In this document: piece after piece, positions 56,107-63,514 of the stretch | Numbering within the stretch: position 1 is the first letter of the stretch | Layout of the letters: each line of letters begins with the position of its first letter | Assembly: GCA_030427885.1 (NCBI GenBank) | Contig: JAUICM010000002.1 | Location: 310,001 to 374,000 of the forward strand | From: Rhodothermia bacterium | Lineage (GTDB): Bacteria; Bacteroidota; Rhodothermia; Balneolales; Balneolaceae | Length of the DNA: 64,000 bases | Direction: 5' to 3' | Notes under the pieces: generated by a model | Seen by the model: only the letters and a program-made list of their open reading frames with translations | Database searches by the model: none | What the model was told of the DNA's origin: nothing | Made by a program: the position numbers and the translations under genes

Positions 56107-56174
56107 AAACGACGGCAGACTACTGACGATTGACGAACGGGTTATTTACCCAGCTCAACTTTAATACACGTAAT

Positions 56175-56325
56175 AGTCCTCCCTCGAGAAGCCTGTACTG
56201 AACTTCTTTCAGTAAGGTGGCATTTTTGGTTTACCAAAAAGACAGAAGGTGTCGTACTGGGTACATAATTTGGAAGCAAACCCGACACCCCTCCCGCTTC
56301 GCGGCTCTCCCCTCAAGGGGAGACT
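56175..56325 (+). repeat. Structured repeat, copy A (DUF559-associated)
   Basis: Begins AGTCCTCCCT and ends GGGGAGACT (outer AGTC/GACT). Internal parts: TTTTTGGT-TT-ACCAAAAA hairpin (56223-56240), 41-bp core from GGTGTCG to CCGACAC (56248-56288), and CTCCCCTCAAGGGGAG at the right end. The left stem is interrupted by an insertion carrying TACTGAA/TTCAGTA (56196-56214). The right end contains the last three codons and the stop of the DUF559 gene. The same 41-bp core is exactly repeated in copy B. Confidence 0.9.
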
Positions 56326-56687
56326 TCTTCTATTTTATGAATCAGAAATTGAATCACTGAGTTCAGGTTCTTTTTTATATCAAGGTCACTAATTCTGATA
56401 ATATGAACCCCTAATTGAGAAAGGTGATAATCCTTTAGCCTGTCCTTTTCAAATTGAGAGTCGGTGTCATGAGAAGTGCCATCTACTTCTATTCCTATCA
56501 TCAGCTCGTGGCAATAGAAATCAATTATGAAATTTCCTATCGGGACCTGTCTGTGAAACTGAACCCCAAGCTTCCTTCCTTTTATTGCTTTCCAGAGTAA
56601 TATCTCCCCTATAGTAGAATTCTTTCTCAGATCTCTGGCAAACTTCCGCAAACCCGGATTATATGGTATGATCTTGTTTCTGGTCAT
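56313..56687 (-). CDS. DUF559-family PD-(D/E)xK endonuclease-like protein
   Basis: A 124-aa protein of the DUF559/MTES_1575 group, related to Vsr-like very-short-patch endonucleases. A helical start (LRKFARDLRKNSTIGEILLW) is followed by the nuclease core: FHRQVPIGNFIIDFYC with the first Asp, and IGIEVDGTSH with the Glu-x-Asp that completes PD-(D/E)xK. The chain then ends in the short helix (LNSVIQFLIHKIEEVSP). The last residues VSP and the stop TGA are encoded by the right end of repeat copy A. A 7-bp dyad overlaps its start codon. DNA nicking or cleavage is likely; target unknown. Confidence 0.88.
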   Translation of the reverse strand: MTRNKIIPYNPGLRKFARDLRKNSTIGEILLWKAIKGRKLGVQFHRQVPIGNFIIDFYCHELMIGIEVDGTSHDTDSQFEKDRLKDYHLSQLGVHIIRISDLDIKKNLNSVIQFLIHKIEEVSP

Positions 56688-56699
56688 ATCTGTATGACC
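56682..56699. promoter_or_regulatory. Dyad over the DUF559 start codon
   Basis: GGTCATA-TCTG-TATGACC, perfect 7-bp arms. The gene's start codon (minus strand ATG at 56685-56687) lies in the left arm. It could be a self-recognition site for the protein or a hairpin that limits translation. Confidence 0.5.
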
Positions 56700-56745
56700 C
56701 GGAACTAACTATATCCTTACAAGATTTTTTAGGAAGGGTAGGAAA

Positions 56746-56857
56746 AGTCCTCCCTTGAGGGAGGTGGCATTTTGAGTTTACTCAAAAGACGGAGGGTGTC
56801 GTACTGGGTACATAATTTGGAAGCAAACCCGACACACCTCCCCCTCAAAGGGAGACT
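56746..56857 (+). repeat. Structured repeat, copy B (DUF559-associated)
   Basis: The outer ends are AGTCC and AGACT. Left stem CCTCCCTTGAGGGAGG (56749-56764), second hairpin TTTTGAGT-TT-ACTCAAAA (56770-56787), core GGTGTCG...CCGACAC (56795-56835) identical to copy A over 41 bp, and right stem with CTCCCCCTCAAAGGGAG. It lacks the extra CCGCTTCGCGG segment found in copies A and C. It lies on the 5' side of the DUF559 gene, in the same orientation as A, so the gene is framed by direct repeats. Confidence 0.9.
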
Positions 56858-56900
56858 TTTAAATTGCCAATGAAATTAATTATATGTACAAATAAAAAAC

Positions 56901-57458
56901 ATGTTAATTATGCAATTATATGAACTTTTATTGGTTTTAAATCCTTCTCCACATATTTCTGTTCATATCAGAGATGAAAAAGAGTGGTTCAAAAGTAATT
57001 ATGGATATTTTGAATCATATTATTCTACTCCTCATATTACTTTGTCTAACTTGTTAATACTACCGGATAAGACTTCTACTTTTCTGAACTCATTGAGAGA
57101 AAAGCTGCTTACAGTTGAACCTTTCGATGTTAATTTAGCTGGTTATGGTTCTTTCGAAACAGGTAAAACTATACATGTTAATGTTATAAAGGATAAGTTT
57201 TACGAAAAATTATTAATGCAACTGGCTTTACAAAAAGCTGAATTCTTCAACCGAAGGCATTTCAATATTATTAATGAGCCCCATCTTACCATAGCAAAAA
57301 ATTTAAGCCCCTTTATACTTATGAGGGCACGAAATGAATATTACAAACGAGATTTCTTTGATTGTTTTGAAGCAAAAAGTATTACTGTTCTTTCAAGATC
57401 TTACAATGAAGTAAAAACCAAGTGGTCTTTTCTGGAAGAATTAAGTCTAAAGAACTAG
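56901..57458 (+). CDS. 2H phosphoesterase (2'-5' RNA ligase-like)
   Basis: A 185-aa protein of the 2H superfamily (LigT/2'-5' RNA ligase, PF13563). The two catalytic H-x-T motifs are PHITLSNL (near residue 48) and PHLTIAKNL (near residue 136), at a spacing typical of the fold. Substrate could be a 2'-5' or cyclic phosphodiester of RNA. The gene is clearly AT-richer than its neighbours and has an unusual AT-rich leader. It sits between repeat copies B and C, so it looks like cargo of the island. The start may be ATG 56901 or 56910. Confidence 0.85.
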   Translation: MLIMQLYELLLVLNPSPHISVHIRDEKEWFKSNYGYFESYYSTPHITLSNLLILPDKTSTFLNSLREKLLTVEPFDVNLAGYGSFETGKTIHVNVIKDKFYEKLLMQLALQKAEFFNRRHFNIINEPHLTIAKNLSPFILMRARNEYYKRDFFDCFEAKSITVLSRSYNEVKTKWSFLEELSLKN

Positions 57459-57475
57459 TCATACAAAATCATTTT

Positions 57476-57601
57476 AGTCCTCCCTTGAGGGAGGTGCGGT
57501 TTTCCGCTTGCGGAAAAAGCGGAGGGTGTCCGGTGGGGAAGATACTTTGATACAACTCCGACACCCCTCCCGCTTCGCGACTCTCCCCTCAAGGGGAGAC
57601 T
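57476..57601 (+). repeat. Structured repeat, copy C (island end)
   Basis: The ends are AGTCC and GAGACT. Left stem CCTCCCTTGAGGGAGG (57479-57494), second hairpin TTTTCCGC-TT-GCGGAAAA (57500-57517), inner GGGTGTCCGG...CCGACACCCC with a different loop from A/B, CGCTTCGCG and right stem CTCCCCTCAAGGGGAG. It is a third, more diverged but perfectly stem-conserving copy. It sits between the 2H gene and the convergent sulfotransferase gene. Confidence 0.9.
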
Positions 57602-57640
57602 AATTTGTGGCTTTAATTCTTTTCTACCACAACGAGTTAT

Positions 57641-63392: not shown

Positions 63393-63440
63393 TCGATGAA
63401 GAAATGACTTTGGGCGATCAATTGAAAGGGTTGAGTGAAA

Positions 63441-63496
63441 GTAGAGAGTTGAGAGTAGAGAGTTGAGAGTAGAGAGTTGAAAGTAGAGAGTTGAGA
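63441..63496 (+). repeat. Tandem array of four 14-bp units
   Basis: GTAGAGAGTTGAGA at 63441, 63455, 63469 (one change, ...GAAA) and 63483. The array is uninterrupted. It lies between the symporter start and the rdgB stop and is an expanded form of the word repeats. Length variation between strains is expected. Confidence 0.85.
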
Positions 63497-63514
63497 GTTG
63501 GTAAGAGAAGTTAA

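Follow-up and report, generated by a model that had tools for sequence, protein, structure and literature searches.

The window analyzed here is a 64,000-nucleotide stretch of DNA from a Rhodothermia bacterium of the family Balneolaceae. Toward its end, between purA and a sulfotransferase gene, lies an island in which two genes alternate with three structured repeats, designated A, B and C:

56175..56325, plus strand: 151-bp repeat unit A, immediately 3' of the DUF559 gene (fold z -3.4)
56223..56240, plus strand: covarying hairpin H2 of A (TTTTTGGT/ACCAAAAA)
56313..56687, minus strand: DUF559 nuclease gene, 124 aa (Pfam PF04480, 4e-23), between A and B
56746..56857, plus strand: 112-bp repeat unit B, on the 5' side of the DUF559 gene (fold z -4.3)
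56770..56787, plus strand: covarying hairpin H2 of B (TTTTGAGT/ACTCAAAA)
56901..57458, plus strand: 2H phosphoesterase gene, GC 0.30 (PF13563, 9.7e-11), between B and C
57476..57601, plus strand: 126-bp repeat unit C, on the 3' side of the 2H phosphoesterase gene (fold z -4.6)
57500..57517, plus strand: covarying hairpin H2 of C (TTTTCCGC/GCGGAAAA)

A preliminary description of this DNA had reported three repeats in one orientation, a frame of AGTCC...(G)GAGACT around each, and the identities of the two enclosed genes and their two outer neighbors, all of which we found in the sequence. Units A, B and C each start AGTCCT and finish GGAGACT, and the 41-bp core GGTGTCGTACTGGGTACATAATTTGGAAGCAAACCCGACAC is, as described, identical in A and B. 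In the window we counted two occurrences of the 23-nt opening motif (0.00 in shuffles) and five of the 15-nt closing motif (0.13 expected). The DUF559 gene is the only gene between A and B; its stop and last codons lie inside A, its position is intergenic, with no intron or intein, and Pfam finds no known transposase in the unit. The immediate neighbors of the gene include no methyltransferase, and an Rfam scan of the window matched no family. The 2H phosphoesterase was considered as a partner in the system, but no homologue occurs at the other DUF559 loci examined, and the gene is probably incidental to what recurs elsewhere.

Compensatory change in the second hairpin, claimed from the three window copies, was confirmed over 15 copies from the window genome. 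There, 99.2% of cells are paired, and at four pairs both sides are altered (21 cells in all). Neither the percentage paired nor the covariation score was reached by any of 500 shuffles, and slid controls came nowhere near. G-U pairing is rare, at 2 cells in 120. Two details of the preliminary description needed amending: the TT loop, called constant, is not kept throughout the family, one copy having CT, and the hairpin series is present in each repeat except that the first hairpin of copy A is replaced by another palindrome. At 56191-56217 in copy A, and likewise at loci L008, L274 and L276, a second palindrome of the CCTGTGCTGAAC...TTCAGCACAGG type sits within the first hairpin, which gives the unit the look of having received an insertion from a different repeat family.

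Single full units fold better than their dinucleotide shuffles (z -3.0 to -8.7, DNA energies). In their plan, a long stem (GGAGGGTGT...ACACCCCTCC) whose loop varies stands at the center, with a variable hairpin on each side of it and an outer hairpin at each end; the outer arms are, in addition, mutually complementary. Inverted ends are present both in the window family (AGTCC...GGAGACT) and in a second family, from genus g4 (CGACCTC...GAGGTCG), which has a comparable plan with two inner hairpins and both-side changes at 8 of 26 pairs. Units of the window start with AGTCC and those of subfamily S with CGACCTC; to the subfamily S covariance model the window repeats are barely visible (16.7 bits, E 0.05), and the repeat families are therefore too divergent for one model.

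DUF559 is carried by 65 of the 92 genomes of the window's taxonomic family. The window genome itself has five DUF559 genes, each amid GC-rich palindromic repeats of a different sequence family. When both 400-bp flanks of each gene were compared, with other ORFs of the same contigs as controls, a repeat common to the two flanks was found for 57 of 104 small DUF559 genes and for 15 of 891 control ORFs; the 57 comprise 52 direct and 5 inverted repeats. The fifteen strongest control matches include three Y1_Tnp genes, recognized by their NH.H and NP motifs, so the metric picks up known repeat-associated genes unprompted. The remaining 45% of small DUF559 genes had no shared flank repeat at the threshold used; among them, 64% have a GC-rich hairpin in a flank, versus 13% of controls. 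Shared repeats are rare around large DUF559 proteins of at least 260 aa (1 of 8), the sole case being a 1449-aa protein with a DUF559 domain at L087 in genome G018 (score 91).

The pairing extends well beyond this family. Eighty loci were taken from named genomes outside it; of the 77 DUF559 genes that could be tested, 36 were repeat-flanked, versus 8 of 175 controls, and the flanked genes include ones from Nitrospinota, Thermotogae, Chlorobiota, Hydrogenedentes and a Firmicute (Pelosinus). The module CCCCTCTTGAGAGGGG ... GGGGTGTGT is common to many of them. Repeat-flanked genes are spread throughout the DUF559 tree, with 27 changes of state.

The DUF559 gene is flanked by its own cognate repeat family, one of the features by which REP/RAYT systems are judged. 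Median flank similarity was 135.5 between the two flanks of one gene and 22 between the flanks of different DUF559 genes in one genome. At non-syntenic sites, a repeat family is shared by 86% of pairs with at least 70% protein identity, by 49% at 60-70% and by 2-4% at 30-50%; repeats and proteins have diverged jointly (Mantel p 0.001 for repeat against protein similarity at such sites). Repeat and gene are co-oriented in 43 of 49 comparisons, or 14 of 16 with each locus used once, and the repeat starts a median of 14 nt past the DUF559 stop codon.

The preliminary description held that the association would be due to chance if the repeat were equally common in genomes without DUF559 and showed no covariation beyond the three copies. 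The repeats proved not to be equally common where the cognate gene is missing: a one-family covariance model gave matches in all 13 genomes with the cognate DUF559 clade (5-37 each, median 22) and a median of 0 in the 79 genomes without it (within-genus permutation p 0.003), the counts being rough since both strands of palindromic units were counted and about 37 candidates were scored per genome. Orphan repeats lacking a cognate gene persist in G024, G029 and G046. Within a genome, DUF559 genes are few and repeats many: in the 4.15-Mb window genome there are 22 matches to the window repeat, and gene-less copies are widely dispersed, with up to 37 model matches per genome. We conclude firmly that the association of DUF559 genes with these repeats is real, specific and general.

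Occupation of sites in relatives was also proposed as a check. In genus g4, the intergenic site that separates two genes identified from their sequence as enoyl-CoA hydratase and thiolase exists in filled, solo-repeat and empty versions. It holds four units and the gene in G023, and units and a gene in G022 and G028; gene-less versions have one solo unit (G024, G021) or several units (G029); and G027, G025 and G026 have neither unit nor gene, the flanks in G027 being 93-94% identical to those in G023. Gene-plus-repeat units have also been duplicated. In G017, a 540-bp segment with the DUF559 gene is present twice, 99.6% identical, with a repeat end (CAATCCTCC) as its left border and unrelated outer flanks. 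The unit is missing from G016 at the first site and from G011 at the second, where the empty site has no repeat at all. G064 and G048 each carry two DUF559 units with unrelated flanks, whose ends are inverted hairpin half-modules (hairpin outside, GGGGTGG-like motif inside); the gene of these units thus lies in the loop. Two DUF559 units, L296 and L297, lie about 1.7 kb apart on one contig; they are about 84% identical, with unrelated flanks, and each is bounded by inverted half-modules. Among 15 copies inspected, for which there was no clean empty site, neither a target-site duplication nor a preferred target was evident beyond AT-rich flanks.

The window DUF559 protein is, by profile and model, a small Vsr-like PD-(D/E)XK nuclease fold. 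Profile searches matched PDB 3hrl (7e-30) and the homing endonuclease I-Bth0305I (3r3p, 8.8e-8). A Foldseek search with the AlphaFold2 model (pLDDT 91.7) returned the same two structures as best nuclease matches (3r3p at prob 1.00), and AbaSI, Vsr, PvuRts1I and TnsA more weakly. E28, D56, E67, G70 and D82 are invariant in twelve diverse members and D69 nearly so; E28, D56, E67 and D69 are the putative catalytic residues. Close gene pairs are under purifying selection (dN/dS 0.08-0.42). There is also a weak RAP-domain match, and the model (m00963f51ca54) resembles in fold chains of apicomplexan and ciliate mitochondrial ribosomes, which are probably RAP-like domains. A role in anti-phage defense was considered and rejected, the protein giving only weak, partial matches to large PADLOC models via the shared nuclease domain.

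Of the two explanations offered in the preliminary description, a mobile element moved by the nuclease and a structured RNA acting with it, the first is favored by the specific and general link between gene and repeat, by the filled, solo and empty versions of one site, and by the G017 duplication; the cleavage it calls for is a step that we infer. We think it probable that the DUF559 gene and the AGTCC...GGAGACT repeats form one two-part mobile system, with the nuclease acting on its own folded repeat. The repeat is a 110-170-bp unit made of two structured half-modules, inverted around a variable spacer. The DUF559 protein, as the enzyme of the system, would recognize its own repeat family when folded as a hairpin or cruciform, and would cut or nick there, with single-stranded or cruciform DNA as the presumed substrate, and host repair or replication would then copy or move the unit. 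Most genomic copies are solo and gene-less; at a few sites, the gene travels along, lying between a pair of co-oriented units, as it does in the window, or else inside the loop that separates two inverted half-modules. We count against this system the lack of an evident target-site duplication or preferred target, the orphan repeats, the correlation of repeat number with RAYT copy number, the small DUF559 genes without a shared flank repeat, and the repair role apparent for other DUF559 proteins, as for VsrA (PMC12907096).

We also advance, tentatively and as a possibility short of a conclusion, a broader reading in which DUF559 nucleases mark out a class of autonomous miniature mobile elements present in several phyla. 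Each would consist of a single 120-aa PD-(D/E)XK gene with hairpin half-module ends, the gene lying in the loop between, or beside, inverted half-modules, and would have gene-less derivatives genome-wide.

Alternatively, DUF559 might be a homing endonuclease that cuts pre-existing repeats, so that break repair copies the gene in with the flanking repeats as homology arms; the nuclease would then spread itself and not the repeats. The detectable homology to the nuclease domain of I-Bth0305I (PDB 3r3p), with its matching fold, is in keeping with this, as are the direct repeats around the gene and the solo repeats at the same site in relatives. However, homing needs a second mechanism to disperse solo repeats, and some empty sites (those of G027, G025, G026 and G011) have no repeat whatever to be cut. 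Gene copies per genome are few and repeats many, and, unlike I-Bth0305I, DUF559 is not encoded in an intron and is tied to a dispersed structured repeat. We regard homing as unlikely to be the whole account, although it is close to the two-part mobile system and may be part of it.

Because RAYT and DUF559 gene numbers correlate, RAYT is the strongest rival among known systems: the repeats would be REP-like and spread by a RAYT (TnpAREP, Y1_Tnp), perhaps of subclass 2.6, with DUF559 as a passenger. Across the 92 genomes of the window's family the two gene numbers correlate at rho 0.75, yet their repeats differ. Repeat number tracks RAYT copy number about as well as DUF559 number (rho 0.69 for RAYT; partial correlation given DUF559, 0.40), and PMC6006769 describes "atypical secondary structures" beside RAYT subclass 2.6 genes in Bacteroidetes. 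Co-occurrence alone does not separate RAYT from DUF559. Flanks and RAYT-less genomes disfavor RAYT as the driver. At 19 of 20 scored RAYT loci the flank repeats differ from those of DUF559 genes in the same genome (similarity 20-31; one locus reaches 40). Moreover, G009, G017, G020 and G050 have repeat-flanked DUF559 genes and no Y1_Tnp match, and the recent unit duplication took place in one of these, G017, where no RAYT gene is detectable. The repeats are specific to the DUF559 clade, and the units lack a GT[AG]G foot. A RAYT-driven origin is, in our judgment, quite unlikely.

The DUF559-repeat system works like REP/RAYT (TnpAREP, REPtron) but is not a member of it. Both pair a small nuclease gene with a repeat family of its own, structured and palindromic, that flanks the gene and is also dispersed in gene-less copies; in both, each repeat family has few genes, and gene and repeat diverge jointly. 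The enzyme, in contrast, is a Y1 HUH protein (PF01797) there and a PD-(D/E)XK DUF559 protein (PF04480) here; the REP is one hairpin of 20-40 nt with a GT[AG]G tetranucleotide at its foot, whereas the units here span 110-170 bp, hold several hairpins and are without that tetranucleotide. RAYT genes of the same genomes carry other repeats. The gene-less units likewise resemble MITEs in sharing their ends, which are inverted, with gene-bearing units, as MITEs do with their parent insertion sequences. Unlike those, the DUF559 unit contains no DDE, HUH or other known transposase, and its ends are hairpins; a target duplication was not evident by inspection of the 15 copies.

The second proposal of the preliminary description, a structured RNA acting with the nuclease, fits less well. 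In this account, selection acts at the RNA level and the repeat is an attenuator, a terminator or another cis-regulator, or the RNA partner of a Vsr/RAP-like protein. The RAP-domain and mitoribosomal similarities noted above would suit such a role, as would a co-oriented repeat directly after the stop codon. Against this, most copies are solo and dispersed, at sites present or absent between species; G-U pairs are rare, no Rfam family matches in the window, and the putative catalytic residues are kept. An RNA role explains dispersal and empty sites less well than a mobile element does, and we consider it very unlikely. Lastly, we regard as highly improbable the view that DUF559 has an ordinary Vsr-like function, in repair or linked to methylation, and that the repeats only mark permissive intergenic sites. 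The mismatch-repair role proposed for the DUF559 protein VsrA of Caulobacter (PMC12907096) would suit this view, but it predicts neither private repeat families nor co-orientation nor joint divergence. VsrA and structure 3hrl share family and fold with the window protein but have no reported link to repeats, as far as the available text of PMC12907096 extends for VsrA.

The preliminary description judged repeat-nuclease pairs of this kind little described, and our literature search agrees: in the open-access literature searched, we found no description of a DUF559-repeat pairing. By title and abstract, none of the papers listed there as mentioning DUF559 concerns repeats, and the core motifs of the repeats are absent from the texts searched. 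DUF559 is a common bacterial family whose role is largely unknown, and mobilization, if true, would give it a function; it would also account for a large class of intergenic repeats, so far unexplained, that occur in Bacteroidota and in other phyla, and would mean that the REP/RAYT arrangement has more than one origin, with enzymes unrelated to each other. The autonomous-element reading, if true, would add a form of DNA mobility without DDE, HUH, serine/tyrosine recombinase or reverse transcriptase chemistry. There would be technical interest, too, in so small a nuclease paired with a folded-DNA partner of its own. As each gene has its own repeat, cleavage specificity is directly testable by repeat swaps.

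GTAG- and CGTC-tagged palindromic repeats, the CGTC class being reported without transposase-gene association (PMC3733652), are likewise small, dispersed and palindromic, but they measure 20-40 bp, carry a tetranucleotide tag and come with no mention of a DUF family in that report. L156 and L158, versions of the g4 site described above, contain palindromes of the GTAG type (GTAGAGACGCGATGCATCGCGTCTCTAC and one related to it), a type associated with RAYT, and at L158 the palindrome adjoins a DUF559-type solo unit. Near the end of the window, at 63436-63505, there is in addition a tandem array of a 14-bp unit (TGAGAGTAGAGAGT).
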